A DNA stretch of 64,000 nt from Arctopsyche grandis (taxonomy: Eukaryota > Arthropoda > Insecta > Trichoptera > Hydropsychidae): assembly GCF_051622035.1 (NCBI RefSeq), contig NC_135362.1, positions 18,996,501-19,060,500 on the forward strand, read 5' to 3'. Within the stretch, counting starts at the first letter, position 1. Each line of letters begins with the position of its first letter. The notes under the pieces were generated by a model that ran no database searches, was not told where the DNA came from, and saw only the letters and a program-made list of their open reading frames with translations. A program made the translations under genes and the position numbers. This document shows, piece by piece, positions 17,801 through 40,400 of this stretch.

Positions 17801-20800
17801 ACAAAAGGCCATAAGTAATTAAATGCATTTTTATACTCACTGGTGAAGATGTTCAATTAGAACAGTCCCTTCAATATTTGGACGGTTCAAGGAATTATCC
17901 AGAAAATTCAATAATATATGATTTGTAACGATCAAGTCCTATGAAATTGAAATATTTATAAAATGCCATCAATAAATTGAAGATTCACCCCATACAAAAA
18001 ATATTATAAAATATGATACATATTTTAAAAATTTTTCAGAATCAACCTACTTGCAAATACTGTTTACTATGAATATCTGGTTGGTAATGTCTGAGTAAAA
18101 GAATAAGAAGACATCTCAAATCTTTAATGGAGCTTATACACATTTGTAACTTCACCAATTGAACACGGTCCTCGTCGGTTAGATGAGATATTTTTTTATA
18201 TATTTCAATTGTCTGAATAAACTCTCGTATAGCTGTTACAGCCTGAAATGAAATTGAATTGATTCAGTTATTGTTATTAAAAAAAATAAAAATTAATATG
18301 ATTAGTGACAAATATACGAACCAGGTGCAATCTTCTCAAGCACGACTGCAAGTCGATTTTATTTATTTTGTCTGCAAGTTGAATCTGTTCACAAAGATTG
18401 ACCCCTTCAAATGTCAAGTACGCGATTATTTCAAACGATAATACTTGATTTACAAACTCAAGATCCAACTCCAACTGTGCAGCGAATTTAAGGAAATAAG
18501 TCAATAGCCAAAAAAAATGTGAAGTGTCAATTTGAAGATGCGCATTGTGGAGAAGTTGGGCGTGAAGAGCTTTAATCAAAGCACCGTATCCTTTTAATAG
18601 GAAGTCAACAGTGAATTCTTTCAACACATTTGTAATATCATCATCTGTAGGAATGTGGTGCATTAGGCCTTTTACATTAATTCTAAAAAAAAAACATTTT
18701 TCAAAATTTGATAATGAATTGTTCTGATATCAATATTAAATTCATGTTAGTCAAACCTACATGTTGGTTTTTCCTCGTTTGACAAGCTTTTTTCTATGCT
18801 TGTCTTTTTTTTCTTGAGCTGTTAAAACTTGTTTCAATTTAATTCCATGCTTGTGTTTTTGCACGTGTGATTTTTGATGCACAGGCTTTATTTGTGAATA
18901 GTCATCTTCATTGCTGGATGTCGATATGGATTCTTGATTTTCCAATTGGGTCACATAGCCGCAGTCAGAGAATTCGGAATTTGTCGACATACAATCTTTT
19001 TTCACACCATTATTGGGACCACTGCAAATCTGAAAAATAATAATCGAATTTAAAATGATTTACTAAATGTACACATCATATTTAAAGCACAAAACATACA
19101 TAATTTATTTTTATTGTAAATATGATTTACATATTTACATACACCTGAAGACTAAAAGAAAATGAAAATAAAATATTATAGTATTATTACCAGGTGTGAA
19201 AGAGGTGTAGTAGGACCTCTCTTGTTATTAAGTCTATTTTTGATGATCGCAGAATTGCTGGCAATCAACTCAGCATCCTGATCCACGAAAATCGTAGTGC
19301 TTGGACGGATTACAGGATGTATTTGAGAAGGATTTAGTGATCAAGTTAAAAGGGAGGTTAAAGGTTTGTGTAAGTTGGCAGAAGTACAAAAAAAAAAATC
19401 ATGTAAAAACCGTAAAATTGGCTGAAGAATATTTGAATTAAATTTAATGTGAAGTATTGATATTAATTTTCTATACAATGTTGCGAATAGCTGAATTTAA
19501 AAATACCTATTAACTCTAAAAGAAGTTAGAACGAATGTGTTTTTAATGAAACACATTCGTTTTTAATAAACTTACGAATTAAAAATTTCAGAAAGAGACA
19601 CGACTGAAACCCGAAACATTTGTTATCAAACATTAAAAATGTACTCACGGACTAATAGTTATTTGTAATTGATTTTTTTAGCTAAATTGCAAAATAAATT
19701 AAAAGAGAAAACTTGCCTTTCTGTCGTTTAAATTTTCATTTGATTCCATGGCATTATGATTTTTAGAGTATTCATCCATTTGATAGTCCATTTTAGAAAC
19801 GCAAGTTCTATTTTGATTCGTCTTAGAAATGTCTCTGCCACCATTATCAGAAACCTCTGAAGTGGGATCTGAAGTAAGCATTGGAGATGAGTCATCACAC
19901 CCTAAATAACGAGTTAAATCGAAACCACCAATTAATACAAATCCAACAAAGGAAAACGATTATAATTTAGATGAATTTGATTAATCTCACTTTGGTCAAG
20001 CGGAGATGTGTTGCTTTCATTATCCTCAGAGCTATCTGATATGGATGCTTCAAACCAAATACTGAGCAGCTTCTGTAATGTGGTGATGTGTTGGTCTTTG
20101 TAAATCAAAGCAATCAGTTGTACTATTGCAACACTCCAATACGTCTACAAATTGTATATTATTATGTAATCTGAATAAAAATATAGTAAAACGTTTGAAT
20201 ATTGAATTTAAAATACATACCCCATATGGAGATGAAATGAGCAATAATATAGTTTTGTCAATCCCTTGGGTAAACAAGTTCCAGACAATTTGATTTTGAG
20301 GTGAAGTGTGACCTGAATTTGGGTCTAACATTGACCGCATTTCAGGTATGTGCAATATATTCCTCAGAAGGAGTAAACAATTATTAACACTCTCAATATT
20401 TTGAGTAGAGAGTTTTATATTATTTTCGAGAACCGCATTAATGCAATCCAGAATTGACTTCGTAACTCTGTTGTCCATAAAATTTTGTTTACTGGAAATC
20501 AGCATATTATTCAATTCAAATATTGTGTGACGTCCGATGTTATTCTTCGACGATTCGTCTATAGAGAGTAAGCATTCTAATGGAACCGTGAGGTTCACAA
20601 GAACTTTAATTGATAAATCAACTATTTTCGGATTATCTTTTACATAGATAAGAATAGGAATTAAGTCTTTTTTGATATTTTGTCCAAAACCAACCGCTCT
20701 ACGAAATGTTCTTAGATTTTTGTCTTCATTTCCAAGCTTTTTATATATCTCCTCAAGTGTGACTGTAACATACAAAATAAATAAAGTAAATTAAAAAATG

Positions 20801-21666
20801 GAAAATATCATCAAATAATTGGATTTGGAGTCTCTAAAAATCGAGCGACTACGATTAGAATTTCACATTTATTATTTTTTTTTATATGGAGAGTATTATT
20901 ATATTTATAAAGCATCTCTGGAGCACCTACATACAATGTATGCTTCGTTCATAATTTTCAACATAAAGAGACTGTCTGAAAAGTATAAAGCTGTTTCAGA
21001 AGATGTCGTTCGAATCGAATCGAGGAGAATATTGTTCCTGTGCAAAAGAACGTTAAAGAAAACTAAAAAATATAAGCGAGAATACGTTGTCAATATTTGA
21101 GGGGCGAATAAACACAATTCAGATATGTGATTCCATTATGAGTGCACTGAAAATGTAGCGCGTCAAAGTCATTTGAGGGATATTTCGATGATCGATTATT
21201 CAAATCATGCCATGGTATGATCGTTCATATTAGGTAAATACCTGATATGAACTATTTTATGTGGGGCTCTCAATATCTTTAGTTAATGTGAAAGCAGCTG
21301 AAGGCTGACATTAGAGAAGGGACTTATTAGTCTCGTTGGTTTAATTTTTTTTAAATTTTATTGTTTATTTATGTATTTTTTCCCAATTTAAAAAAAATGT
21401 ACCTACATGTATGTGTATGGTATGTCTATACTCGTATATACATGCATACATATGTATATTTATATATATTTATACATATCTAATATTCATATATAATTTA
21501 TACCTTCCTGATATAAAGTTTGTAATATTACATATAAAATAAATATGTATCATATATGGTATCACTTACCAGTACAATCATCACTGAGATGGTAAGTATC
21601 TCCCTGGACGAATCCCAAAGATCCAAATGTGCTATGAAATTGGGGGCTCGATAAAATCCACTCCAT
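13959..21666 (-). CDS. tim: TIMELESS circadian clock protein, 17 coding exons
   Basis: TIM partners PERIOD and is degraded on light input in the insect clock. The reconstruction keeps one reading frame across all joins: 21666-21570, 20762-20221, 20144-19991, 19901-19717, 19277-19191, 19029-18761, 18682-18322, 18242-18051, 17938-17841, 16284-16086, 16011-15887, 15692-15229, 15103-14903, 14811-14628, 14548-14462, 14253-14104, 14025-13959. This gives about 1153 residues plus TAA. Diagnostic parts: start [28 protein letters not shown] and [10 protein letters not shown] in exon 2; [11 protein letters not shown] in exon 4; [20 protein letters not shown] in exon 6; [13 protein letters not shown] and [20 protein letters not shown] in exon 7; [13 protein letters not shown] in exon 10; VPWNNEQST in exon 13; [13 protein letters not shown] at the end. 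These match circadian tim, not timeout. All introns are GT-AG except one GC-AG candidate. The exon 5 start is the least certain boundary. The start codon sits 6 nt after an acceptor, so there is at least one 5' UTR exon upstream. Confidence 0.95.
14903..18682 (-). other. tim: tim exons 7-13: second conserved TIM block
   Basis: Residues ~445-991. Exon 7 opens [16 protein letters not shown] and encodes the long hydrophobic [15 protein letters not shown] segment. Exon 8 opens [13 protein letters not shown] and exon 9 [14 protein letters not shown]. Exon 10 gives [17 protein letters not shown] with [16 protein letters not shown]. Exon 11 opens [10 protein letters not shown]. Exon 12 carries [17 protein letters not shown]. 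Exon 13 carries [13 protein letters not shown] and [10 protein letters not shown]. Every donor and acceptor phase agrees with its neighbour. The exon 7 donor (CTG|GTTCGT) is weak. The 1.5-kb intron between exons 9 and 10 holds only A+T-rich sequence, including an imperfect palindrome at 16771-16812. Confidence 0.93.
18761..19901 (-). other. tim: tim exons 4-6: serine-rich linker and nuclear localisation signal
   Basis: Exon 4 (19901-19717) holds [11 protein letters not shown] and a low-complexity N/S/D-rich tail. It ends at AAAG|GCAAGT, a strong GC-type donor. The next coding block ends at 19191 with [20 protein letters not shown]. Its best in-frame acceptor is the AG at 19279-19278, which opens [12 protein letters not shown]. 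The frame stays open further upstream ([15 protein letters not shown]), so a different acceptor, such as AAG before CACTACG, cannot be excluded. Exon 6 contains the [12 protein letters not shown] phospho-acceptor cluster and the basic [14 protein letters not shown] stretch. The latter corresponds to the known TIM nuclear localisation signal. Confidence 0.8.
19532..19560. repeat. perfect short hairpin in a tim intron
   Basis: An 11-bp perfect stem (CGAATGTGTTT / AAACACATTCG) with a 6-base loop lies in the intron between tim exons 4 and 5. It would form in the pre-mRNA. Function unknown. Confidence 0.6.
19991..21666 (-). other. tim: tim exons 1-3: N-terminal TIMELESS block
   Basis: Residues 1 to ~264. 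The ATG at 21666 is chosen because it opens MEWIL, the usual insect TIM N-terminus. The A/T-rich acceptor TTTGTAG ends 6 nt before it. Exon 1 ends in phase 1 (ACT G|GTAAGT) and exon 2 opens TC ACA CTT, restoring a valine before [13 protein letters not shown]. Exon 2 carries the [10 protein letters not shown] and GRHTIFELN segments and the [12 protein letters not shown] motif of the armadillo-like fold. Exon 3 opens [19 protein letters not shown] and ends in an [13 protein letters not shown] serine/acidic stretch. All are landmarks of the insect TIM N-terminal half involved in PER interaction. Confidence 0.93.
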
Positions 21667-22178
21667 GTTTGCCTACAAATTCGAATTAAAAATAAATTTA
21701 CAATTTGAAGGTATGCAATTACATATATCTTCAAACACATGTAATTATTTTACAATAGATTAAAAATATTTATATACAATAGACAAATTTCAGACTATAT
21801 GTATACGGATTTTGGAAACGTTTTATGCTGAACAAATTTTTATGTTAGATGAAGCGTCATTTAAATAATTCAGTCACATTGAATTTAAAAACCTAAGTAA
21901 CGAATGGGCAGTACTAAAATATGCTACGAGCGTACATATGTATGTGCATATGTACTTAGCAAATCGATCGATAAAATAGCATTTGGGAAACCATATAAAA
22001 TGCTAACTGCAAAATACTAAACGAGATAAGATTAATCGAATTCAATACAATTATTTTTAAATTTATATTGAAATTTTTGATTGAGTTCAATTTGATTGAT
22101 CCTTCAAGTCAGTTTCAAATTGAGTTGTAATTTACACAACGTGCAATCGTACCTATGTATGTACGTATGTACATACAT

Positions 22179-22453
22179 ATGAGCCGTTATATATGAAAGT
22201 GGCAGAATTTTCAGTTCCAAAAACATTATTTCTGTTTGACTTAATTCACAAATTGTTATCACTTATTTCTATTCGATATATCCAAAAGCCCGGAAAAGCA
22301 GAATAAACGTATGACAGTATTTTTAAATATTGCCATTGGCTCACCAGTATTTTTAAATGTTGTTAAGCGCAAAACATTATATTATGTTTAATGTTTTGCG
22401 AGATATTTCTCGAAATGAAGAAAAGTGGATTTGCATATATTTGAATTATAACG
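22179..22453 (+). mobile_element. MITE family 'GAGCCGTTATA', copy 1
   Basis: The segment from ATGAGCCGTTATAT onward aligns, in reverse complement, with 62481-62724. Shared internal landmarks are GGAAAAGCAGAATAAACGTAT, CCAGTATTTTTAAAT and GCAAAACATTATAT. The left end is intact, while the right inverted end is eroded (AATTATAACGAC). There is no coding capacity. Confidence 0.65.
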
Positions 22454-23411
22454 ACTTATATACATATATGTATGTATATAGTACATAAATACATTCACTA
22501 TTATCTTACGAATGCGTATTTTATATCACGATTCGAATTAGGAAAAGGTTTGTACATTGTATATGCGTTATGAGAATCCCGAAAAAGTCTACAAAAATAT
22601 ACATGTATTCATTTTAAAATAAAAAAAATAAATTTGACCTATGTAGTATTTAGAATATTCCATATTGAGGTAAAAACACCACGAGTGTGTATATATGTAT
22701 ATATTATTAAAAAAAAAGCGATTTGTATAAATAGTTATTCTGTCGACTTTTAAGTATACGGATTTTAAACTTATACAATAAGATAAGCTTTTCGTTTACG
22801 AGACGAGTCACGGGGACGGACACGAGACTGTTACTGCTGCAAATGCCAGTCATCAATAAGCTACCCATCTATCTATTATACATATGTATGTATGTACATA
22901 CAACGATTCATCGACCGCTTCTATTTATATTATAATTCACAAATAAATATTTACTACAGGTAATAAGTACAAAAGCAATTATAAATTTGATACAAAAAAC
23001 GTATATTTAATTGTTTAACATTTTAGAAATTTTGGAGATTTTAAAGTATGTACAAACATACAAATAAATTCCAAAAGCGATTGCTGAAAGTTTATATTAT
23101 ATTTATATTAATCTGTAATTTCTTCTTAGCCATTTTACTTAGGTAGTATCTTAATTTACGTCTGCTACACTTGATACGTTTGATCATACAATTCAAATAA
23201 TATTATTATACTGTATGTATGTATGTATGAACATATATATGTACGTGCATATGCATATACATAATAGACCATAAATATCCCGTCTTCCCGTGTCACGCGT
23301 GCGGTGTGGAAGCATAAGTATGGTATATAATACAGGTATTTAATTATTTTAGATATTTCAAACTTATATTTTATTTTATTTTACATATGTAGGTACATAT
23401 ACTATGTATGT

Positions 23412-23620
23412 GTACTAGGAAGACCAATTAATTACAAACATTGCAGCAGTTTTATTACATAAATCGCTGTATTTCGAGAGGCTGAAGAAATGTACAGTTA
23501 ATTAATTGATTAATTAATCCATAGAGACATCTATGGATTTAGACTTGTACATAATTTTTTATATATTGTACATAAATCAAATTAAGATATTTGTGACATA
23601 GCGGGTGGGATGGTTTTATT
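23412..23620 (-). mobile_element. SINE fragment (copy B, 5'-truncated)
   Basis: The reverse complement of the 3' two thirds of the SINE at 10742-11116. It shares CTAGGAAGAC, the TTACATAAATCGCTGTATTT stretch and TAATCCATAGAGACATCTAT. The tRNA-like head is missing, as expected for 5' truncation. Confidence 0.75.
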
Positions 23621-23641
23621 CATATATTATGGGTAGGGTAG

Positions 23642-23691
23642 TACAATACATATCTACCTCTATATATATATAGAGGTAGATATGTATTGTA
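23642..23691. repeat. perfect 50-nt palindrome
   Basis: The sequence reads identically on both strands: ACAATACATATCTACCTC on the left, an AT core, then GAGGTAGATATGTATTGT on the right. The perfect match ends at 23641/23692. Confidence 0.9.
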
Positions 23692-25146
23692 GAATTTTAC
23701 TCCGTAGTGGAAGTAGGAAGATATGCACGACACTTTGAAAGTATAAGCTTGCGATGCCAACATCTTCAATTCTTCTCCATGCAGAAGTGAGGTGAGTATT
23801 GGAAGGAATTAGTGATTCAGATCTGCTTGGTCTATCACGAGAGGATCCACCTTGTAAAGAGTGTATTCTATAGGTTTATTTCTTAGTTCGGCGATAAATG
23901 TACATTTGTAAGTGATTTTTATTTATTTAAATAAATAAAAGTAAAAATACAGTATACTACATATCACGTGATAATATGTACAATATATGTATGTATATAT
24001 ATATATATATATTTTTTTTTCAGGTTATATGTCAGGTAACTTTTCCCCCCTGTCACGAGGCACAATTTGTCACGTTTTAATTTGCGTGACGCTTATATAT
24101 GCAGTTAATTAAAAAATGTTATTATTTTTTTCTCCAAATGAAAAACATTTCTACCGGTGAGTTTATTTATTTATTTTTTGTAATTGTTGGTTATACATAT
24201 GTACATATATATGCATGTAGAATTGTCAACAGAAGATATATATGTTTATTGCTAGTATATAAATATTTGTTGTTAATCGTGTATTAGTCATGTAAAATCT
24301 ATCACAGATTTATCATTCAAAGATAGCAAATTAGCGCGATAAAATATTATAAAACAATCATGACAAAATCGGATGTGAGCAACCCATAACTTTATCTATG
24401 TATGTATTTGAGGAATATAAAGTCATAAAACAAAATTCGATAATTAAGCATACATTGTACACGTTCACACATATCCAGAATAAATCATTCAAAATATATA
24501 AATTTATTACATATTTAGCAACCAAGTGTTCAATCTGATTGCAAATGTGGTAATTGTTATATGTAGTTCAGATGATTATTCTACCTTCATAAATACATAC
24601 ATTAATACGTATATTTGTATGTATGTATGTAAGTATTGTGTGTCACTAGCTCGTGGCATCGCCACGTGATGGTCGACGTAAACGATTCTGATGGCGACGA
24701 AAGATATATCAGTGCGAACAAAGTTACGACATTTCACGTTAACGTATTACATATATATAACATACCAAATCCAAAATAATTAATAACTAGAAATAAAATG
24801 AAAAGAAAAATAACGTGTTCGATATTTTATCATAAAATTCTCAAAAATGGATTTCTTCTGAAACATATGTAATTTTTGGTGTCACTTTAGTATGCGTATG
24901 GTCTATCTTCACATATCCACTCTAGTGTGCGCGATCTACCACGTTTTTACTTTAATATATGGTGTCACTGTCTCAGTTCTCGCGTGTGACAGTGAGACTG
25001 AATAATACCGAATAATTTTTACTTTATCTATGTACGTAGTAACAATATATGAAGTTTTGTGATCATGCGAAAATTCGAACTCAAGATTTTGACTGATTCG
25101 AACTCAGAATCGATTACTGATCACGTTTTCATGATCTAGAAAAAAA

Positions 25147-25171
25147 TGTGTGTGTGTGTGTGTGTGTGTGT
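25147..25171. repeat. (TG)n microsatellite
   Basis: About twelve TG units, read directly. Confidence 0.9.
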
Positions 25172-25380
25172 ATTTTGGGGATTTTTTGAACATCTTTAGT
25201 CCTATCGAACCGAAACTTAGTATCGGTTACTGAAATTATTATCGACACGACGTAATTTTTTTTCAAATTTTTAATTTTTATTTGTATCGTTGCAACGACC
25301 TGTTTATTATAATTTTTGTTTTTTCCTGCCGCCCCATAATGTTGTCGAAGCATTTCTACCAAAATATCGTCAGCAGCGAA

Positions 25381-25483
25381 GAAAATACCGACCCTAACAA
25401 TCTAATCTTAAATGAATAGGGACAACCCTAACTCAACCTAACCTAACCGGATCCTTAAATAAATAGGTGTTGGCTGCTAAGAT
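25381..25483 (-). repeat. fragment of the 7665-8155 foldback core
   Basis: AATACCGACCCTAACAA, CTTAAATGAATAG and AAATAAATAGGTGTTGGCTG are the reverse complement of 7905-7995. The fragment includes AACCTAACC repeats. It lies inside the larger inverted-repeat element. Confidence 0.75.
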
Positions 25484-26191
25484 ATGTTTTTTTTTTTTTG
25501 TGAAAATATTGATGAAATAAAACTTTAAAATTCTTTTTTTTTATTAACTGCGTAACAGGGGGGAAAAGTTACCTGACATATAACCTGAAAAAAAAACAAT
25601 ATATAATACATATAAATGTACATATTATTACGTGATATGTAGTATACTATATTTTTACTTTTATTTATTTAAATAAATAAAAATCACTTACATATGTACA
25701 TTTTTTTCATAATTTTGTCTATCGTTGTGAATTATTATGATATTTTTGTAAGTCAATCTAATTTCATACTATAAAATGTTTGTAATTATGTATACGTGTT
25801 AATCAAAAACACTCGTTACACAATAGAGTTCTAGTAAAGGATTTGTTTATAAATTTAAATTAAGCATAGTATGTGTGGCCGTCACTATTGAAAATTCAGC
25901 AGTGGTCCCATTAGAATAGCGACGTGCGGATTCTCGCAAAATAAACATGTACATATGTATCAGCATGCTGGAAAATATATTTAACTTCCAACATACCTTA
26001 AGTTTTATATGTAAAACAGCAGTAAAATCATAATTACGCCGACGTTTTAGTGTATTCATATCTAATTACACATTCAATGGGTATAGTTATATTTTCACTA
26101 CGGAATTTACATATTCAAAATTATAATTTTTTGACAGTTGAATGTTAGTGAAATATCAACTTAAGATTATTTTATAGAATGCTTTACGATT

Positions 26192-26585
26192 CAATAATTA
26201 ATTGGTATTACGTGCTATGGAAATAAAGTTTCTGATTACGACGACCCTTAAGTGAACGACCCGAGAAGTGAATTTGTAATTCTACTGTTACATTCGTACT
26301 CACTGAATCAGTGAAATTATAATTCAATAAATTGAAAAATATTAACAAGGTAGAGTGTTTTAATAACTCAAACTTTATTGATTATCAAAACTAGTTTTTA
26401 GTGAACTAATGAACTTGAAATGTGAAATGAAAATAAAGTCTTCATCTATTTTGACGATAATATGTGTGTTATCAGTTTGAGTCAGTTTATCAGTTTAGTC
26501 AGTTTGAGGTGAATGTAAAAGCATCATTCGATTCGTCGTAATCAGAAACTTTATTTTCATAGTACGTAATATCAATTAATTATTG
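26192..26585. mobile_element. foldback MITE with 53-bp terminal inverted repeats
   Basis: The left arm 26192-26244 (CAATAATTAATTGGTATTAC through TTCTGATTACGACGA) and the right arm 26533-26585 are inverted copies with three mismatches in 53 bases. The ~290-bp centre is non-coding. It lies in the proposed first intron of tim. Confidence 0.85.
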
Positions 26586-28039
26586 ACAAGAACAATTTCA
26601 CTGTTACATATATAATATAACAGCAAATTGGATATGTCGTGTTGTACGTTTGTCGATTACGATAAATTAAAAAAAAATACATTATACCTACTATATAAAG
26701 TTCGCAATTTCGAGTCACAGGTAAACTAAGCTTATAAGAAAAGTTTGAAGTTAAAATATTTTCAAATAGGATTTAATGCTAAAGTGATTTTCAATATGTG
26801 CCTAGCCTAACCACCTGTAATAGTATGTATATACATACAAATATTCGATACACAGGAAATGGAAAATTCTCTCCACAACACAATCTAAAAATAAATTTTA
26901 CATACATAAATATATTCATTAACACATTCGTTGACGTTAATATCCGCACGAGCAATGATAAGAATAAAAGCGCAATACATATTACGTATGCATGTACTTT
27001 AATATTTGGAATTCATAGCGTTCATTTAGTCATTATTAATAAAAATATGGGTTTCGTAAGGTATGGAATCAATAAGTAAGCAATCTATTTTACATTAATG
27101 GAAAAGTAAAGTTTATATTGACAGGGAATCACCTGTAAGGATAGCGTATTAATGAAATTATGTTCACAATACAACTTAAATATATCCATTTTAATAGCTA
27201 CTGACCTACTGATCATTTTCCATTTTACAATTTTAATTTAATTTTGTTAGTAATTATAGTATTGTATTATTCTAATGTACAGCATAATAGGAAAAAGAGC
27301 TCAAAAACCTATTTAAGGATAGCGTATGGATGTCAAACAACAATTCATTCTTAGCAATATTCTGGTTAATATCTCCACTCTCGTACTTTAACTGACCTTC
27401 TTTTGCTACCAGACCTTCTCGACTGTTGCGAGGCTAATAAGTAATAAGTCGAGTTTCCGATCTCTAGAATTTTTTTCTACCGTAGCTGATTTGTGTTTTA
27501 AGACGTAAACGAAGGTTTAAAAAGGCTCTTTACTTTAGTGATTTAATCTGTAATTAATTCATTATATTTAAATATGTTGAATATTTCAAAGAGATTTCAA
27601 CACTTTAAGACTGTAACTTCGTTTCCGTTAGTGTCGATACTGTAAAATATAAAGCTATAAAGCGTACTTAAAACGAAACTCATTCGAATTAAAATTTTTT
27701 GAATCGGGAAAAATATTGTAATACAGTATCGCATTTAAATTTATGGAGAGATAGATGGTAACAAACAAAACGGAACGACGAATATTTTATAGCGATGGAT
27801 AATATAAAATGTTTCCTATATTGAAAGCTACATCTGTATATATTACACATAAAACCAATAATAATTTACGAAAAAAATACTAACTTTGTAGAACATACAT
27901 ACAGATATTAAAAACAAAAGAAAAGATAAAAAATACCAAAACAAAATTATATCAAACTAGAAGTTTTACCCGGCTTCGCTCGTTATTTGTAATATAAACC
28001 GCTTTAACATGGCTAATCAAATAGTAAAGATTTGTTTTT

Positions 28040-28420
28040 TTTCTTGTAAGGGAATCGGAATTGAAATTGGAACCGGGAATCTGATTTGAAACTGAAACAG
28101 GAATCCGGATCCGGAACTGAAACATTTATCTGGAACCGGAACTGAAAAAGGAAAACAGAACCGGAACTGAAACAGAGATCCGGATCCGGAACTGAAAAAA
28201 GGAATCCGGAACTGGAACAGAAACAGGAATCTGGAACCGAAACAGGAATCTGGAACCGAAACTGAAAAAGGAATCCAGATCTGAAACTGAAAAAAAAATC
28301 CAGAACCGAAACTGAAAAAGGATTCCGGACCCGGAAATGAAAAAGAAATCGGAATCCAAAACTGAAACACGAATCTGGATCTGGAACTGAAAATGGAAGA
28401 AGAAAAAGAAAATTTTGATT
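28040..28420. repeat. purine-rich minisatellite (GGAATCCGGAACCGGAACTGAAA-like)
   Basis: Tandem variants of a short purine-rich unit built from GGAAYCGGAAC and TGAAA(C/A)AGG blocks run for ~380 bases. The long minus-strand frame here encodes only F/S/P/V/R-rich repeats and is a composition artefact. The array is preceded at about 27967 by ACCCGGCTTCGCTCG, a motif often seen at the ends of invertebrate retroelement fragments. Confidence 0.85.
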
Positions 28421-29448
28421 TTTTCGATAACGTCACGGATTATCAGACTTGCTTACATACATACTAACATAAAAAGTCTCCTTCGAAATTAATATTAGAT
28501 TTAAATACACAATATAACAGGTACATGTAAATAAATCGGTTTCTTAAAGAGAAAATACGAATCAAAATTCACAGCAATTCAATATTAAAATTTCTTTAAT
28601 ATCCCAGAAAACATTTTGACAGGTAACGGATAAATTTCATGAAAAGAGCGATTTCATAATTTTGCATTTTCCTTTTGCCACACAATAATTTGTACGACCT
28701 TGCTTTTTTTTTAGAATTCAATACTTAATATAATATGAATTTCGTTGACAGCATTTCTTTAAAATTAAAATAAATTTTAGCTTGAAAACTTTTCGCGAAA
28801 GCTTTCACACACAAGAGCTTAATTTCTATACAGATTTTATATACAAAGATAAGTTACCATTGTGGTATAATTATTTTGTATAAATTAATAACGTTTAAAA
28901 TTGTAAAGCACCCCATTTGTTTATAGTTTTCTCTATGAGGATTGTACATAATGCTTGATGATCGATGTTTCTAATTAACCTTGAATAATACTTGCGTACA
29001 ATGTTGAAAATAGAATTCGTGTTAATAAAAAAAATGGGTGTTTAACATTACTGGTAAATAAAAGGAAAAGATTACAATACGATGTTTTTTAATTAGGAAA
29101 ATGTGTTTTGTCCAAATACGTTCTAATTACATACGCAAATTTTAGTTTTCGTCAAAAACAATAAAATCCGAACTTAATAAGGTTAGAATTAATACAATAC
29201 CATAATTGATAAAACAGTTTGCATTCAATTTTATATATGTATTCGTGTTTTACAAACAGAGGTTAATATATGTAGGTATATGTACTATCAAAGTAAATAT
29301 CAAAACTTTTCTAACAATCACACGCACTTTGATTGTACTTACACATCTTAAAAACAACACGCGAATTAAGACCGACACTAAGATAGCAACGATGAATTGG
29401 GAATCTAAGATCAACGTAAACAAACATCGTTACAATCAATCAACATAC

Positions 29449-29760
29449 CTCTAAAGAAGAAGTAGACACCGCAGTGATAAGCTTCGGCATCAACCGCACC
29501 ACCGCACAGGCGAAAAACCACCAGAAACAGTCCTAGATGTTCTGGTATCGACAGTCTAGTTGATGTGTCTGCTGGGAAGGTTTCCACTGTTGTGGAATCT
29601 GGAGAGACTGGCTCGAGCCGGCGAATGATCGCACGTGAAATTGCAACGTGATCACGAACTGCGCCTGCTTTTGTATTGTGAACTCTCTCACTCTGTCTGT
29701 CGTATTGCGCCTGTCTTTTATATTGTGAACTCTCTCGCTCGCACTAGCAACGTGACCGAT
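29449..29760 (-). promoter_or_regulatory. tim: proposed tim promoter and 5' UTR exon
   Basis: On the minus strand: TATAAAAG at 29722-29715, then about 240 bases ending in the strong donor AGAG|GTATGT (exon end 29449). On the plus strand CACGTG lies at 29632-29637 and AACGTG at 29645-29650. That is a tandem E-box/E'-box with a 7-bp spacer, the arrangement bound by CLOCK:CYCLE/BMAL dimers in circadian genes. Further AACGTG or CACGTT copies lie at 29749-29754 and 29916-29921. No ATG opens the long frame in this exon, so it is taken as non-coding. Direction, donor and distance fit a 5' exon of tim. The link to tim is inference. Confidence 0.5.
29661..29740. repeat. tandem duplication of a 46-bp promoter segment
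   Basis: Two direct imperfect copies start at 29661 and 29707, each reading GCGCCTG, TTTTGTATTG or TTTTATATTG, then TGAACTCTCTC. The upstream copy (minus-strand sense) holds TATAAAAG and the other TACAAAAG. CTCTCTC on this strand is GAGAGAG on the transcribed strand, a GAGA-like element. Confidence 0.7.
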
Positions 29761-29976
29761 CATGGAAAACTCTTGTGTGTTAACTGCGGGAAAACGTCGA
29801 CCCGGCTAATGCGTATCACTTCCAATTGTGTGCGTGAAAACGTGCGCTTACTTTTACTTTATTTTTTTTGTAGAGGGTTACATATTTGCTAAGCAAATTT
29901 AATCAAAATTTTCATCACGTTGCAGCGCATTCACCTTAGCGCAAGATGGTGCAATTGCAACTGTGTCTAGAGCACG

Positions 29977-30094
29977 GGTCTACCTCACGGCACCGAAAGT
30001 GAAAAGGTCCAAAAACCAAATATCGGAAGGCAAAGATCGAAAATCGAAAGATACTTAAGTCGAAAGATCGAAAAAAAAGGGTCCATGGTAAACG
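29977..30094 (-). repeat. dispersed repeat 'AAGATCTTTCGATTTTCG', copy 1
   Basis: The reverse complement of 31556-31672: ACGGCACCGAAAGTG, ATCGGAAGGCAAAGATCG, AAAATCGAAAGAT and CCATGGTAAACGGTAC. A second partial start (GGGTCTACCTCACGG) follows at 30126. Confidence 0.8.
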
Positions 30095-30169
30095 GTACTA
30101 TGTATATATTATATGTATGTATAATGGGTCTACCTCACGGGACCGAAAGTGAAACGTGAGTATTAAATT

Positions 30170-31264
30170 TCACAGTTAGTAAGATAAGTTTTGGAAAAAA
30201 ATTGGTATAAATTGTATAAGAGATAAATTGTATAATCTTGTTTAAATCACTGGTTTTGGTTATGATCAAAACTTTGGATGTATCGTTCATTCTTATGTGA
30301 ATTTTACCATGTTTAATCCAAGTGTACTGATTGTTTTTTTCTTTGGCCGTTTCCTTGGTAATAGTGAGTAGTTGTTTGGATTCTGGTGTGAGGTGGTCAT
30401 ATGTACATATGTACATACATAAATGTACGTACGTCATATGTATGTACGTATATCATATGTCATATGTATGTATGTAAATACATAAAAGGGCTAGTATTCA
30501 AATTCAATAGTCAGTAATTCAAAAGTATGAACAGTTCGATAATTTATGTTTAAGATAGTCGGAAAACATGAAAACAGAAATCAAATCACTGTACGATTTG
30601 ATAATTGCTGTAAAAAGTAAATGAAGTATTATTAGAAAAAGGCTCAAAGCTAAAAATTAAGATACAAATATCTATGTAATTTGGGATAAATGTAGAAAAA
30701 TACGAAAATTAGTCTTGGTCGAGTAGAATAGAGTAGTAATATTTGGACTTTACAGAGATACCAGAATCAGAGAATTCAGCTTAAGTGGTGCCTCACTAAG
30801 TAAAATATTGTTTTTTACCTACCACTTTTATGAATACTTACTGACCGTTTTAGCAAAAAATTTGTTGCCATTTAAATATTGAATTTTGATATTCTATATA
30901 TTATTTTTTTCATTTCTTAAAAAAAGTATTCGTTTGTCTATATATGTACATATATATATATATACATATGTATGTACATATATACATATCTATATATGTA
31001 CATATGTATATATAAAATTGAATGTCCAAAAACGGGAATGAGTGGCATTGCAACGCAATAATTCCAAATGTTTTCCTGCGTTGTTAGGCGTAAAATAAAC
31101 AAACAATTAAATAATTAAAAAAGTGTTTGCTGCCTGCATTTTCCCGACAAATGGGAACGGGAAGGGGAATTGGATGCGTTATTGTGGCTTTGCAATGGGT
31201 GACCGTAAAAAAGTCGAAAATGTTCGTTTACCATGCATACATATGAAAAACGGTTAGTATATAT
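30170..31264. other. intergenic, no gene seen
   Basis: A+T-rich sequence with dense CATATGTATG and TACATATAT palindromes at 30395-30475 and 30940-31010. The minus-strand frame at 30135-30437 has no features. Confidence 0.5.
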
Positions 31265-31680
<416 letters not shown>

Positions 31681-31887
31681 GGTTTTTCCGCTGCTATCGG
31701 GCACTTTGACCAAAAACTACGAAGGAATCTACGTCCTACGAACCTACCTTCCACTACGAAGGAACCTCTCGTCAACTTTGACGATCAATCCTTCGCTTGC
31801 GAATTTCTGCTTTGGCTGCTGTCGATTCAAGGACTCGACGCAAACTTCTTGCATGTATTTTATTTCAGTCGACGGTTGTGTTCTTGT

Positions 31888-32094
31888 TCATGCCCAATTC
31901 TTCGTTGCAGTTTGCCCAGCGACAATTTCTTGGACCATAAATAAATGAAACGAATGGTTCTCACAAATTTGATACGACCGGTTTGCAATGCGGATATCGA
32001 TCTTATTTCGACACATAGACTTTCCGCAATTCCAGGAAATACGCAAACTATGGTATAGCTGCATCTCGTGACCGTTGTGACAAATTAAAGACAT
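31888..32094 (-). CDS. short FLYWCH-like zinc-finger ORF
   Basis: ATG at 32094 opens a 68-residue frame ending in TGA. Its spacing resembles a FLYWCH-type zinc finger, a domain found in insect chromatin proteins and beside MULE-type transposases. It has LICHNGHEM, then W-N-C-G-K-S-M-C (C-x4-C after a conserved W), then E-N-H-S-F-H (H-x-x-H). The usual final motif is H-x-H, so the last ligand pair is atypical. The frame is richer in G+C than its surroundings. No further coding sequence is joined to it convincingly. It may be a lone exon, a small gene or a transposon remnant. Confidence 0.4.
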   Translation of the reverse strand: MSLICHNGHEMQLYHSLRISWNCGKSMCRNKIDIRIANRSYQICENHSFHLFMVQEIVAGQTATKNWA

Positions 32095-32234
32095 TAATTT
32101 TATTGTATGAAAAAATTCAAATAAAACAAACGATATTTTTTTCGTATAAAAATATTTAATTAAATAAAAAAAATTATTTTGAGCCGTGATAACAGGAAAT
32201 TACTCCATTTTGTATAACAAAATGCTTCTCAATG

Positions 32235-32450
32235 CAGTGCCGGTTTTAGGGGGGGGCTTGGTCGGGCGGCGCCCGAGGACGCCAAATAAGTTAGGGCGCC
32301 GCTCGATGCGCCAAAGGCGCTTTAAAACTTAAATCTAGAGCGCCAAAAGCCATACAAAATTTTAGATTAGAGCGCCAAAGGCGAAATTTTTTTCTAAAGG
32401 TGTTAAGAAAAAATTGCCCGAGGGCATCATTGGGTGTAAGGCCGGCACTG
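32235..32450. mobile_element. non-autonomous hAT-type element with 8-bp target duplication
   Basis: The ends are inverted: CAGTGCCGG at the left and CCGGCACTG at the right. The identical 8-mer TCTCAATG flanks both sides (32227-32234 and 32451-32458), a hallmark of hAT insertion. The 216-bp interior is non-coding, with GGCGCC and GCGCCAAA(G/A)GC motifs repeated. Confidence 0.92.
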
Positions 32451-32743
32451 TCTCAATGGATTACATTTCATTAGCGATGAAGTGAAAGTGAATGCACCAA
32501 CAAATAAGCAATAGAGTTTTATTAAATTTAACCAGAACTTATTTTTAAAACAAGAAATTTATTTTTATAAATCTTTGTATGTTTCGATAGTCGCAGCATT
32601 TCAGATTTCATATTAACTGTTTATAAAAAAATTTAAGAGCGGTTCAATTTTCCAGGTTTGCACCAGGGCCCAAACTGTTGATGAAATGCCACAGTCATCA
32701 TGTATAGGTACGGTTTTCAGATTTCATGCAAGTCAAACCGGGA

Positions 32744-32759
32744 AACCCCCCCCCCCCCC
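32744..32759. repeat. C homopolymer run
   Basis: An uninterrupted run of C in an A+T-rich context. Read length may be unreliable here. Confidence 0.8.
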
Positions 32760-32763
32760 AAAT

Positions 32764-32975
32764 CAAATCATACCAAAGATAGGCTTCACTGAGAGGATTA
32801 GTGAAAAACTCTAATAAGGTTTTTGGTGTTTTTGCTTCAGCTAAAAAAAACCTTCAAATACCTTTGAAGTGCGTTCTATTGCAGGTAATAGTGATAGCCA
32901 CCTAGTTTTTGAATGTGAGAGTAGATTTTTAACAGCAAAATCACAGAAATCTTTTAGTCTTTCTGTTCTGACGTT
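32764..32975 (-). pseudogene. decayed hAT-family transposase fragment
   Basis: Minus-strand translation gives RTERLKDFCDFAV, then SHSKTRWLSLLPAIER, then AKTPKTLLEFFTNPLSEAYL. These are the SKTRWLSLLPAIER and NPLSE-type motifs of hAT-like transposases (the ZBED/THAP-associated group). Upstream sequence is interrupted by a stop and the frame is not continued, so it is a relic. It is not the source of the neighbouring 216-bp element unless their ends match, which cannot be tested here. Confidence 0.75.
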
Positions 32976-32999
32976 GTCTATAACGCATCTGCGTGTAAA

Positions 33000-34880
33000 G
33001 AATCATTCTGAGTGTGAGAAAATTATCGTAATAAGTTGATTGATGCCTGATACACATTTTTTGTCTCCCTTCTACACATAGTTTTCCGGAAAGTATAAGA
33101 CAGAGACAAATAGTTCATTGTTGAATATTGCTGCAGTGTTTACCAGACTATCTGGTCCAGAAATCGACTTTTTGTTTATAGTTTATGTTAATTCTGAGTT
33201 AAAAACTTCTGTAGGAATTTAAAAAGTAGTAAACCGAGACATTTAGGCGTCCCGTGAGGTTTGTTCGGGACACGAGACTTAAAACTAGTGACAATTCCGA
33301 TTAATTGGGACGCCTGACAACCCTATGTATAGGCAAAGGTTTTACTAACCATAAGCCAGGATACCAAGGCGTTGAATAAACGATGATGCAACGTTTTTGT
33401 TTGGCTTCATTGAATCGACAGGCAAACAAATTAGTGCTGAAACTTAATACTGCATAACACTTTTTTTTAATAAAAAAGTGTGAAATGTACTAGAGGAAAT
33501 AATTTACATAAGTGTATTGGTTCTGTATGAAAAATCATGAAAAGTTTTGTTGCGTGAAAACTATTTATTACAAATTAAAATTGAATATTTTACAATTAAT
33601 ATTATATTAAAAATAGTAAACATGTTTTATGTACAGTCAATAAACCCACCACCCTTCAAACTAGATTTTTGTATATAAAAATAATTACTATTTCCGATTG
33701 TGCTGACACCCGCCAAGTAAGTTATTTTGCATATATGACACACAAAAATAAATAATCTTCCAAGATTTTAAGTATCATGAATTTCAGAAAAAATTATAGA
33801 TAATAAATACTATCACCCTTTTCAAAATGGTCTAGATTTCCTTTAAACAAATCAAAACAATTGGCACAATATAAATATACAAATAAGTATGTACATTTAA
33901 TTAGTAACAAAGCAGTCAGATTTTTTGTCTTGTATTATTTATGGAAAACATACAAATGGTATATTTTTAAGAAAAATTTGGTGGAAACATTTTGTTTAAT
34001 ACTGTACTGCAAGTAAAGTTTAACACATTTGAAGATAAAAAAGTTAAAATTATAATTAGAAATTCTTGCGTTTAGCAAAAGATGCGTGTTTTAATATTTT
34101 TACAGTTCTAAAATAAAAATATTTCAGTTCTACTAAATTGCAATAGGCACTGTATCTTGTCAGCATTAAATCTTAAGTAGTTGGAAAATATATGTATATT
34201 TTTACTATTATACAGTTTACATATTGTGATCCTATATCACTATAATTTCTTAAATAATATAAATGTGCATTTGAAAATACATATGTCCTATTAACATTAA
34301 AAATAATTATAATTATATATTTGATCTAAATTTAATTCACTAAGAAGGAGACTAATTGAAAACAGAAAAAATTGTATTTGAAAAAATAATTTAAGGCAAA
34401 GATTTTGTAATGAAAATAAATTGAATGTATGTATGTATGTATTTAGAATTTTTCAATGGCTATTCTATAACATTAGGACACTTTTGACTACCCAAATATG
34501 TGTATACAATGTAATATTATAAATTCGTTTCTATTATATTCATATATATGTATGTATACTAGAAATATATGCTGTGAATGCAACAGTTGCGAATTTCCCA
34601 TATTTAGTCATTTGAACAGTTTTAAATAAGTTTGTATGCACGAAATTTCCGCAGCCGATAGTTTGTGAAAAGCAATTTAAAGTGCAAAGTTACTAATCTC
34701 AAGCACAATTCAATTAAGTCACCAAATTTACAGCAATAAATTTCATTTCGAACAAGACACTTACGATTATATTGTCAAACAATTGTTAAATTTTAATTTT
34801 AAAAATCTTCAATAATTCACCATTAAAATTAAACTTTACTTCTAAAATTTGGAATATCTTTCTGGAAAGACTTTCTCAAT
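33000..34880. other. intergenic, no gene seen
   Basis: A+T-rich DNA. The stretch at 33235-33325 with GGGACGCCTGACAACCC resembles the CCGGGAC repeat fragments at 8490 and 48250. No coding frames are supported. Confidence 0.45.
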
Positions 34881-34888
34881 GTTATTTC

Positions 34889-36657
34889 TTATTCACATTT
34901 ACTTTTGACTGTTAACATTATCTGATTTGTTTGATGAATGAGATATAAAGCGCTTACGAATACAGCATTGGCTCTGAAAAAAAAAAAATGTATTATTTAT
35001 TTTATATTTATAAACCTGTAGTCATCATTTTCAGCCATTCCATGTTTTGGGCAACTTCCATCCATCTCACACCACACATTTTTTCTAATTTCGTCTACCC
35101 ATCTTTCTTGCAACCATCCTTACAAATTCTTTCGGGTCCATTGTAGCACTATTTTGTCCACCATTCGTCCATTATTCTAGCTAAGTAGCCCAACCATTGC
35201 CATTTCAATTTCTTCACTCTCTCCACTATATACATCGGTGAGAAACCTCCAGTATGAATATATAAATAAAAATAAAAACTTACTGTCCCTCTTTGAAATA
35301 CTCCTTTAGGGTATTAGAAAACCTTTTGGAATATTTGACAAATTCCCTTTTACGCTGTTCCAACATTTGTTTACCGGCACCCGGGGTAAAACCAGCCACT
35401 TCATTAACTGCATCTAACAATTTCTTAATAGCAGAGGCAATTTCTCTACAAAAAATGATTTAATTAAAAAGTGTTAACTATACATTCATAGTACAATATA
35501 TGTGGATGAAAATAAAGTTTACTTTATCGTTTCCAAAAATGTTTTTCTATCTGTAATTTCATCAGGAATACGGCTAAGAATTTTCTTCAATGCGGCAGAC
35601 TTTTTGTTCAGTTCTTGAAAAGCATCTTCTGATCGATTGAGACGAAGCTCCATCGCTATAATCAAAACAATTAAAATAATATCAGTATTATATACAGTAT
35701 AGTGATGAAATTAGATCAAAAATTATATGATTGACATTGAATTCGCTTTTGAGCTTAAAGGTCTGACCGCACTATACAACAACCGAACGATCCTTCACTT
35801 CACAACAGTACGCGACCAAATATCGTTGCGCGACAGTCGCATGACGTAGAATGACACCTTGCGTCAAAGTTGACTTTTCGACCAACTTTGACGCAAGGTG
35901 TCGTTGAATGGGGGGTTGCCTTGCGACAATTATTCTCCTTCTTCATATCGTGACTTTGAAATAGCATGTAGCCATAATCTTTTGGGTTTTCTCGATTGTT
36001 CTTCTTCTTCGCATATCAAAGATACTATAATAACGTCCATTTTGCTCCGAGGTATCGAACGAATGATTGACATAATCTGTCGTTGAAGTGCGGTTTACCT
36101 AATATTATCGCACACTGTTGTGACGTGAAGGAATCGTTCGGTTGTCGTATAGTGCGGTCAGACCTTAAACATGTCGCAGTGTAATATTTACCAAATAAAT
36201 TCTTTGAAAGCTCTAGTTTAAATATTTACATTTGTCTTCATACATCACAATACACAATACGAAATGAAAACAAAGTGTGTTACCGTCCGCTTCCGTCGTG
36301 CTCCCCTGCAATCGCAATATGCTTTCGTTCAAATTGATAGAAAGGTCTGCATGTCGTAAGATTCCTGCAACGAGATCATAGCTCAATCCGGGAACGGTAG
36401 CTTCGGCCCTTGACAGTGCAGTTCTCAATGTTTGCGATGCTCCGACGTCACATCTTTCAAGCTAAAACAGGAGGAGACGACATCGTGAACAGTTCGATAA
36501 GTGTGAAGACACGAGAGGATGTCTCGTATGACACAAGTAGAGATAAGCAGTGTGTCATATGTAGATGTGGATGTGTATGTGGTACCTGTGCGAGGACTGG
36601 CCTAATGAGTACCGGCAGCACGAGAGCCGCTACGGGAGCCTCGTCACCCATCGTCAT
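34889..36657 (-). CDS. PDCD10: Programmed cell death protein 10 (CCM3), five exons
   Basis: PDCD10/CCM3 is a small adaptor. It binds GCKIII-type Ste20 kinases through its N-terminal dimerisation region, and binds STRIPAK and other partners through a C-terminal focal-adhesion-targeting-like four-helix bundle. Exons: 36657-36586, 36461-36284, 35655-35523, 35445-35284, 34973-34889. All joins are in phase and give 209 residues plus TAA, close to the usual ~212. Landmarks: [15 protein letters not shown] start; [13 protein letters not shown] with [73 protein letters not shown] with the basic patch; and the last helix LIHQTNQIM. The ATG at 36657 is preferred over the internal M3. Intron 2 (36283-35656) carries a 405-bp MITE and intron 4 a LINE fragment. 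The 5' flank is G+C-rich to about 36800. Confidence 0.95.
35022..35236 (-). mobile_element. LINE family 1, copy B (in PDCD10 intron 4)
   Basis: A shortened, diverged copy. TTTTCAGCCATTCCATG then CATCCATCTCACACC, TTTCGTCTACCCATCTT and CACTCTCTCCACTATA match the same minus-strand reverse-transcriptase tail as copy A. Internal deletions are evident. It is both 5'- and internally truncated. Confidence 0.8.
35760..36164. mobile_element. MITE with ~50-bp inverted repeats and TTAAA flanks (in PDCD10 intron 2)
   Basis: Ends GGTCTGACCGCACTATAC and GTATAGTGCGGTCAGACC are inverted copies extending about 50 bases with few differences (through CCGAACGAT.CCTTCAC and TCACAACAGT). TTAAA lies directly on both sides (35755-35759, 36165-36169), consistent with a TTAA-type target duplication. 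Inside lies a second, perfect 20-bp hairpin (35853-35872 with 35883-35902, 10-base loop). The plus frame 35898-36086 has no transposase features. Confidence 0.88.
35853..35902. repeat. perfect 20-bp hairpin inside the MITE
   Basis: GACACCTTGCGTCAAAGTTG is followed, after 10 bases, by its exact reverse complement. Confidence 0.92.
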
Positions 36658-36659
36658 GT

Positions 36660-37360
36660 CGGAGGGTCAACACTCGAAATCAATGGCAATGACAGTAGTT
36701 GTGGCCCCCGAAGGCCTCTCCCACAACACACACCTCGCACCTCACACCTCACCACCACAATCACACCACACTGACAGCTCGCTGACACGCCTGACAATAC
36801 ACTCGGCACGTCGTGTACCAACTTGATTCTAATGAAAAAGTGCCATGATATTTTTTTAAATATTGAGCTATTTCACGATTATAATATCTGTTTTATTGTT
36901 CTAGTACTTTTTTCAAATCTGAATGGTAATTATTTATTATATGAGTGACTTCTTAGCAATGTTTTTTGAAGCTAAAAATAAAATCTCAATCTCTTGATGG
37001 AAAGGGTTATAGGTCAGGTTAAAGGTTTCGACCGTTTCCCGGCCTATGGAAACTCAGTTGATTTTGAAAGAGGGTCGTTTATTTTTGTTCAATTGTTTCA
37101 ATGGTTATTGTATGTACGAAGAGGTTGAGCTTCGGAGAAGTGAGCTGGTTGAACTCTAGAGGTACACTCTGGTGTTGGGAGCTGGTGCGTCGCTTTATAT
37201 ACGTTCTGGCTTAAAACGTGCCGTGTGCAGATGCTTTGTTTTTGTTTCCAGGACACGTGTGTTGGGGACACGTGTTGACCTGATTTCGAGGTGCGTGTGT
37301 TCGGTACACGTGTGGTTTATAGGTATGGGGTCAGCGCCAGGACGTCATTCGTTTGAGAAT
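36660..37360. promoter_or_regulatory. intergenic flank with E-box cluster
   Basis: Upstream of PDCD10, 36660-36830 is C/A-rich and G+C-richer than its surroundings. Further right, ACACGTGT occurs three times within 61 bases (37253-37260, 37268-37275, 37306-37313), each containing the E-box CACGTG. Another CACGTG lies at 37509-37514 beyond a LINE fragment. A TATATA sequence is at about 37196. This may be promoter DNA or part of an unrecognised LTR. The gene served, if any, is unknown. Confidence 0.35.
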
Positions 37361-37460
37361 TGTAATTTATTTATTTATTTATTTATTTAATAGTTTTAAT
37401 AGTTTTGGACCATTGTGGCATTACAGGAAGAACCTAATGCGCCACAATGGCCTACATTTG
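37359..37460 (-). mobile_element. 3' end of LINE family 2 with (TAAA)n tail
   Basis: Plus-strand (TTTA)n followed by GACCATTGTGGC, GCGCCACAATGG and neighbours. In minus-strand sense this is a 3' UTR hairpin (CCATTGTGGC...GCCACAATGG) followed by an (AAAT)n tail. The same structure ends the longer copy at 46496-47250. Confidence 0.75.
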
Positions 37461-37464
37461 AAAA

Positions 37465-40400
37465 AGATATAAAAACAATGGGGTCGTGTGTCACGCGTAA
37501 ACGCTTGCCACGTGTTTACGATTTCCTGATGACATCACTTTTGGGTTTCGTTCGTTTTACGATCGAGCGATGAACTCATTCTTCTGGAATGGTCGAAGGG
37601 GACGTTGCCCTTGAGTTATGCATGTTTGTACAAGATCGATGATGATTGGTGTTAAATGTATGAGATCACAGGTTTTGATTCGTAATAGCACAAGTTGTGC
37701 TATATTCCTACAGGGGTTTACAAAAATAAATCAACAATGGTGGATATGTAGAAAGGTTTTTTTTGATTTTGGCGAATTTCATTCGAATTCAACATGTCGA
37801 TTTGTAAAAAACGACTGAACTTTTGATTTTCTCACTTCTCATTCTTTTCCCTTGTGCAGAACGTTGACTTTCGTGCATAGCAAAAAGTTTATAGGTTTTA
37901 AATTCTTTTGATAAAGCAAACTTTTGGACAGTTACATCATTATCATTCAAGGAAAACGAAAACTTGTTTGAACACTATAGTTTGATAATACTTTAAGGAT
38001 CGATTTGAAAAAATGCTTATTAATTTTTGGTCAGATGCCAGAAGTTAATGGTCAAATGATTAAATAACGAGCACTCTATTATTGTGTTACTACAAATAAT
38101 CTATTCACAAACCTTCACCAAGCTGAGCTTATTGGGGCCTTCAACACAGTCAATATTAGTAACAGCATCACTCGTATCAACCTCCCATATAGCCAACTGT
38201 GGTGGCTTGCTTTACTCGCACGCCCTTTGCTATGCAAATGCTATTGATTCATATTATAATTACAACAAATTTGAAATAATAGCAACATATAAATATTTTT
38301 GTGATTTGAGGGGAGAGGTAAAGTTCATTGAAATGGGCTGCCAGGTCATAAAAAGACTGGGCTGCCAGGGCAGACACGAGTCATAAAAAGTTGGGAGTCA
38401 CTGTCCTAGATCAAGATTTTTTTAGGAAATGAGAATACATATACATGTCTGTAAATGTAAATGTTTGATGTTCACAATATATGTATATCTAAATTCTTAT
38501 GTATTTTTCAATATTAGCTATGGGTCCAGTGATCATTGGGGGGTATTACACTATGGGGGCGTAAAAAAATGAAATAACGGAATATTGTACACTCGACTGT
38601 TTAATTTGACGGTCGGGAAGAAAGTGAAAAAGCGGCAAACCGGTATGGCCGAATCAGTCCCAACTCACAGGATGGTGACTGAAACTCGACCATGTCGTAG
38701 AGCCGCTACAACACTACAATACGGATTGTGATTCTAGTATCGTGGATTTCAAAACAGCCCGGATACACTGCTGCGCGATAGGCGTGAATCGTGTGATAAT
38801 TTAGATTGTGTAATATGCCTCATTATCTATTTTTTTACATATAATTTTTGTTGCAAGTATTATAAGGAATGGGTAGAGGTGTAACAACAGTATGGTTTGA
38901 AACACGACTATTATAGTTGACTCTATTAACACGCTAAACCTGGCAGGTAGACAGGCTCAATAAGTTCTGCTTGGTGAAAGCTTGTGAAAAAAAAAAAGAT
39001 TATTTGTGGAAACACAACTATACAGTTCCTTGAATACACAAAGAATACCCTACTACAAAGCAACTCACTACGGATTGAAATTTTATTTTTAACTTAAAAA
39101 TTGTTTCTGTGGTGAGAGATTTATTATGATTTTATAGACGGTATTTTTTTGGATTATTAATAAATAAAAGAATGAGTGTAATGTTTGAATATTTGAATGG
39201 AAAAAAGGGTAATATTGATTTTTAGTTTTGTAAACAATGTGCGTATTGAGTTGGCTGCATTTTGTGGGCTTATGTTCATAAGTGAATGTCAACGTGACGT
39301 TAGGTTAAGTCGCGTGTTGTACAATTTTTGAAAAAAAGTTATAATCACGTGGTTTTTAAGGTTTGGACTTATCATAAAATTAAATGTATCAATTTTAATG
39401 TGATTACTTGTAATTTTATGTAAACCGTTCTAAAAGTAAGTGAAAACGTGGAGTTTAATTTAATTTGTTATTTAAAATTGCTTGAATTTTAAAATGTAAT
39501 GTGTAGCTGAAGACTTTAACTTTTTTTAATATTTTTTTTAGTAAAGAAAATACATAAGATAATGTAATTTAAATTTTATATTACCGGTCACAGTAAAAAT
39601 TTATTTTTTACAATTTGGTTATTTTCAATGAAAATTTGTTTTTTATCAATGAAATAATTTTTCTGCGTATATAGGGGGCAAAAGTCTAATGATCTGTGAA
39701 ATCCTGTCAGGATTTCAGGACATTTTCATACGGCATTTTCAATTGTCCGAAATTTGTATTGAAAATTTTATAGTCTTCATCTTTTAAAATGGTTGAAAAA
39801 AATCATTTTGACTGCTAACCCCATTCGCTTCAGTCAAATTAGTAGTAGTAAATCATTGTGATACTTAATATTTTTTTAAGATATATACAGTATTTATTGA
39901 AATATATCAAAGACAATTCAATGAATGCAAGTTATCCTTATTTATCTAGATAAAATGTTGAATGAAAGGAAATAGGCAAGTTTATCAATGAGATCTTGGC
40001 CAGAGGCTTATTTTAATAGATTTGCATAGCTAACCCGTCATCCATAACCATTGCCTTATTTTTGAAAATTTAACTTTTTTGCAACTATGAAAATGAAATT
40101 TTTATTTGTTTTAACTCGAACTATTTTATTTAATCATGGAGTGTTTTTACCTTTTTTTCACGATATTTGTGATTTTCGTCCACAGCGGTGTGTTAATAAT
40201 TACATACATACAATTTTCTTGCTGGTTCTTAATTCTAAATTAACAATTTAATTATTGCAACAACACTTTGAATTACCAATTTTAGTTTAGTCACTGCTAG
40301 TTATTGGGTAAGTTTGTTACAATTCTCTACATTTTTCAATTCTTGTTATTATATATGCCTATTAATTTTTATGCTCGAACATTTTATACTGAAACCATTT

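Follow-up and report, generated by a model that had tools for sequence, protein, structure and literature searches.

In flies, timeless (tim) carries tandem E-boxes seven nucleotides apart that are bound by CLK and CWO, and its circadian enhancer fragment spans −714 to −578 (PMC5096704). A second CLK-bound E-box region, which is intronic, is also described for flies (PMC11009632). In E1–E2 elements, the spacer is constrained to 6 or 7 nt; with mouse liver extract, the CACGTG-N7-AACGTG probe sp7 gives a shift closely resembling that of Dbp-I2, and the complexes contain CLOCK and BMAL1 (PMC3043000). Lepidopteran CLK:BMAL1 acts on E-boxes to drive per, tim and cry2 and is itself repressed by CRY2 (PMC8635995). 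Drosophila tim also exists as an ls-tim allele, in which a further in-frame ATG, upstream of the canonical one, lengthens the protein by 23 residues; the resulting L-TIM shows less CRY binding and lower light sensitivity (PMC9008550, PMC8971440).

The locus described here lies in a 64-kb window, by which we mean the whole stretch of DNA that was analysed. It resembles the Drosophila tim enhancer in that two E-boxes with a 7-nt spacer precede the coding part of tim, and in the size of the first intron, which is large in the fly and predicted to be so here (PMC5096704, PMC11009632). The two differ in position: the Drosophila pair lies some 580–710 bp upstream of the start, whereas the pair here lies at most 25 bp from an initiator match or inside predicted exon 1. 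It also shares the order CACGTG, 7 nt, AACGTG with the E1–E2 elements of CLOCK:BMAL1 targets, namely mouse Dbp and Per2 and the synthetic sp7 (PMC3043000). Unlike those targets, the element here is a candidate predicted from sequence and, of the 93 exact copies in this genome, only the tim copy was seen near a recognized clock gene. We consider it probable that tim has its core promoter region and its main 5′ exon on the minus strand at about 29450–29760, and that CLK:BMAL1 drives it through the tandem E-box. As a promoter and first-exon prediction it is well placed and ordinary, of a kind known from flies and mice.

The timeless gene and its upstream interval

The first canonical coding exon of tim (21570–21672, minus strand), delimited by splice signals, contains ATG 21666. 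The next coding exon (20221–20762, minus strand), whose ends were read from splice signals, matches the Pfam TIMELESS domain. When the two are joined, the alignment of their product with fly TIM begins at the first residue of both proteins and scores 214.7 bits, vs 77.5 bits against human TIMELESS. On this alignment evidence, the identity of the gene as a clock-type (insect d-type) timeless is established. An earlier sequence-only reading of this DNA had proposed a tim promoter on the right strand and side of the gene, and gene, strand and side all agree with the alignment. A single tblastn scan found no TIM relatives in viral contigs.

The coding exon is preceded by the predicted acceptor TTTGTAG-GCAAACATGG, whose first exon base, 21672, lies six nucleotides ahead of the ATG. 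Upstream, tim adjoins PDCD10/CCM3 on the same strand (34889–36657, minus strand), three exons of which match Pfam PDCD10_N and PDC10_C. Because PDCD10 is on the same strand and ends near 34.9 kb, the tim promoter is expected within about 21.7–34.9 kb. Beyond PDCD10, WDR55-like exons occupy the plus strand from 43.2 kb (best Pfam family WDR55, each piece below the model cut-off).

A candidate first exon and core promoter

The proposed 5′ exon occupies 29449–29692 on the minus strand and would be 244 nt long with a TATA-set start or 178 nt long with an initiator (Inr) start. It would end at the donor GTATGT (29443–29448, minus strand; AGAG-GTATGT, last exon base 29449), which ranks third among the 717 minus-strand GTs of 21673–34889 when scored with donor weights. 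This donor is one of two AG-GTRWGT matches on that strand of the interval, and two other donors, at 22344 and 31747, score slightly above it. Splicing from 29449 to 21672 would remove a first intron of 7,776 nt (21673–29448, minus strand); both the strong donor and this pair of coordinates are exactly as the sequence-only reading had given them. The exon block has the highest 250-bp G+C content of 21673–34889 (0.496 vs a median of 0.292), and 29400–29900 matches itself alone in the genome in a first-pass search, which can miss copies.

Within this block lies the tandem E-box CACGTG-N7-AACGTG (29632–29650, plus strand; CACGTGAAATTGCAACGTG), found by motif search. It consists of a canonical E1 CACGTG at 29632–29637 and a second, E-box-like AACGTG at 29645–29650, with a spacer of 7 nt. 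The pair had been reported at these positions, 7 bp apart, with a spacing called typical of CLK:CYC/BMAL; the positions hold to the base, and the arrangement is the E1–E2/sp7 one of the literature (PMC3043000, PMC5096704). Allowing up to one mismatch, CACGTG-N6/7-AACGTG occurs only here in the window, and CACGTG-N5-8-AACGTG averaged 0.01 occurrences in 100 shuffles of the window. Additional AACGTG/CACGTT copies had also been said to flank the pair, and they are present at 29749, 29839, 29916 and 30153; the last belongs to repeat DNA. The first of them (29749–29754, CACGTT on the minus strand and AACGTG on the plus strand) shares its context CACGTTGC with the tandem element, the shared word occurring twice, at 29747–29754 and 29643–29650. 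The repeat holding the 30153 copy is an element at 29976–31672 with inverted arms at 29978–30052 and 31598–31672, and its near edge is some 250 bp from the TATA sequence, on the 5′ side.

That TATA sequence, TATAAAAG (29715–29722, minus strand), was found by motif scan and is the sole minus-strand copy in 21673–34889. Under the 30-nt rule for the distance from TATA to start, it implies a start near 29692. Its first T, at 29722, precedes the E-box pair by 72 bp, so that with a start near 29692 the pair would belong to exon 1, at about +43 to +61. The sequence-only reading had set TATAAAAG beside the E-boxes; it is present, at minus 29722–29715, and its 5′ position means that the E-boxes may be exonic. 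A TCATTC match to the Inr consensus (29623–29628, minus strand) lies just 3′ of the tandem E-box with its A+1 at 29626, and a start there would leave the pair just upstream, at −24 to −6. A distance of 96 bp separates the TATA match from the Inr match, and a scan of 29440–29760 found no match to RGWYVT (DPE). The TATA sequence sits in a local duplication (29668–29740, minus strand) of two 26-nt copies, 29668–29693 and 29715–29740, that are 92% alike; one holds TATAAAAG and the other TACAAAAG. A sigma-70 promoter scan was disregarded as inapplicable to insects.

From these elements, we infer the start site, splice junction, binding, rhythm and feedback of a tim promoter. Two CLOCK:BMAL1 (CLOCK:CYCLE) heterodimers would occupy the tandem E-box with cooperativity and so make tim transcription rhythmic, beginning near 29692 if the TATA sets the start or near 29626 if the Inr does. 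The 5′ exon would then be spliced from 29449 to 21672, six nucleotides ahead of the canonical ATG, and the clock repressors PER, TIM and CRY2 would act back on CLOCK:BMAL1 at the same element.

E-boxes elsewhere and alternative promoters

Two other E-box clusters in the window are associated with repeats. The sequence at 36998–37712 is a high-copy repeat containing four CACGTG (37254, 37269, 37307 and 37509). Its part with three of them occurs in 39 other places at 87–94% identity, among 40 scored of 2,252 candidates, and many of these matches also cover the part holding the fourth. We therefore rejected the 37.25–37.5-kb cluster as an element of tim's own, all four CACGTG lying within the repeat. 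Such a repeat could spread E-boxes through the genome. Inside the proposed intron 1, an element at 23896–25703 has 87-nt inverted arms that are 97% complementary, between which a cluster at 23.97–25.13 kb holds eight E-box-like words. Three of the eight (23965, 24460 and 25122) fall in parts with listed copies elsewhere and five fall outside such parts, with 40 of 4,319 candidates scored; we set this cluster aside as a less likely tim element rather than rejecting it, and because its repeat nature is only partly shown, our confidence in the main reading is slightly lower. The same proposed intron contains an imperfect tandem array at 28050–28400, with periods of 19–120 among the matches listed.

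For comparison with other clock genes of this genome, we used loci named by recognition of translated Pfam hits, which we take to be per (C2:25.29 Mb), Clk (C2:4.35 Mb), cyc/BMAL1 (C2:29.31 Mb), cry1 (C6:6.90 Mb), cry2 (C9:12.52 Mb), vri (C11:24.70 Mb), Pdp1 (C2:4.61 Mb) and cwo (C4:32.01 Mb). Of the exact composites, 93 genome-wide, none comes closer than 300 kb to the matches for per, Clk, cyc, vri, Pdp1, cwo or cry2; the copy nearest to cry1 is 178 kb away, and the one nearest to per 370 kb. With up to one mismatch allowed, one composite was found in the 70 kb scanned at per, one in 20 kb at vri and one in 20 kb at cry2, three in all vs a summed shuffle mean of 0.36. Taken region by region, 12 of 100 shuffles did as well for per, 16 for vri and 3 for cry2. 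The 20 kb that cover the vri-like coding exon and its 5′ side (C11:24699001-24719000) contain 17 CACGTG, whereas their shuffles average 4.3 and none of 100 reached 17. These counts modestly support the view that clock genes of this genome use E-boxes. A background set contained no composites in 104.6 kb and was given no weight, being a poor control: its loci overlap in part, and among them are 3-kb pieces from around Clk, cyc, cry1, Pdp1 and cwo. On the 5′ side of a cry2-like exon, at a distance of about 2.4 kb, CACGTT-N6-AACGTG is followed by CACGTG within 35 bp (C9:12519826-12519860). Separately, two Met/gce-like exon sets, named by recognition, lie about 46 kb apart at C2:18.84 and 18.89 Mb with equal match scores, which points to a recent tandem duplication or an assembly duplicate.

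The tandem motif is not commoner than chance in the genome. In 475.67 Mb, there are 47 exact CACGTG-N7-AACGTG copies vs 56 for a reversed-pattern control and 46 exact N6 copies vs 73, or 93 vs 129 in total, fewer than a control that is imperfect because its reversed words lack CpG. We therefore rejected rarity as an argument; the same non-enrichment says nothing against one functional site. It does bear on an explanation that we regard as unlikely, namely that 29450–29692 is indeed the tim 5′ exon and promoter, with the E-box pair a chance neighbour and circadian drive coming from other elements. That explanation draws on the genome-wide count, which is not above control, and on the 13.2-kb PDCD10–tim interval, in which a composite with at most one mismatch appeared in 8 of 100 shuffles. 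Nor does this interval show a significant excess of CACGTG by itself (three vs 1.28 expected, reached in 16 of 100 shuffles). The argument therefore needs the exact match, of which about 0.0026 copies are expected in the interval (93 per 475.67 Mb). Because the motif alone is not rare, it is the context that carries the argument for a tim promoter: the same spot unites the sole exact tandem E-box of the 13.2 kb with the sole minus-strand TATAAAAG, the top G+C content and the third-ranked donor, so that a chance pair would have had to fall within a block marked by independent signals.

It is likewise improbable that tim has its main start elsewhere in 21.7–34.9 kb, this block then serving as a minor or alternative promoter of the gene or as the 5′ exon of a non-coding RNA. 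Other good donors exist at 22344, 31747 and 25996, but those at 22344 and 25996 sit in G+C-poor DNA, and the one at 31747, in a fairly G+C-rich window (0.464), has no TATAWAWR in the 800 bp 5′ of it. CACGTG, AACGTG and CACGTT are all absent between 30154 and 37214. The intronic CLK-bound region in flies (PMC11009632) is a precedent for such an arrangement, and the E-boxes at 24–25 kb, shown to be repeat-borne only in part, also favour it. A start just upstream of the ATG, with the AG at 21674–21673 being no acceptor, is very improbable; this acceptor is predicted from sequence, but a T-rich tract and AG stand six nucleotides ahead of the ATG, and 22138 is the sole E-box-like word from 21673 to 23964. 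We therefore retain 29450–29760 as the probable main promoter and first exon. Gene, strand, splice pair, G+C peak and E1–E2 arrangement all support the sequence-only reading of a tim promoter, and its TATA placement and its non-coding exon are the points that change.

A possible upstream in-frame ATG

That reading had called for an upstream non-coding exon. The acceptor six nucleotides before the ATG is consistent with an upstream exon, but that exon may be coding. The single ATG of the proposed exon (29488–29490, minus strand) is in frame with TIM across 29449/21672. If this predicted junction holds, the reading from ATG 29490 runs open for 16 codons into the canonical ATG and would add MPKLITAVSTSSLEAN. 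When exon 1 is shuffled, an in-frame open ATG arises in 27% of cases if the exon starts at 29692 and in 24% if it starts at 29626; a single ATG that is in frame as well arises in 1.7% and 5%, respectively. The context of the upstream ATG, TTGATGC, is weak and that of the canonical ATG, AACATGG, is strong, which makes leaky scanning plausible. We offer as a speculative novel lead rather than a result, and as a rather doubtful one, that every clock-promoter tim transcript carries the in-frame upstream AUG and that, by leaky scanning, a single allele gives two proteins, S-TIM and an L-TIM that is 16 residues longer.

As in Drosophila ls-tim, an upstream in-frame ATG would extend the TIM N terminus while the canonical ATG is retained (PMC9008550, PMC8971440). 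Unlike in ls-tim, the predicted ATG lies in a separate upstream exon and adds 16 residues vs 23 in the fly; ls-tim is a polymorphism, whereas the present case is predicted from a single genome sequence. Among the papers listed, there was no report of an upstream in-frame tim ATG from another insect group, which is not proof of absence. Such a dual start would amount to the ls-tim polymorphism built into the gene through an exon, in a genome with a CRY1-like light receptor. Were the upstream AUG used, the choice of start codon, and not a rare allele, would determine how long TIM is and so perhaps how sensitive it is to light. With the promoter prediction, tim gains a testable start site, first exon and candidate CLK:BMAL1 element in an insect that encodes both CRY1-like and CRY2-like proteins.
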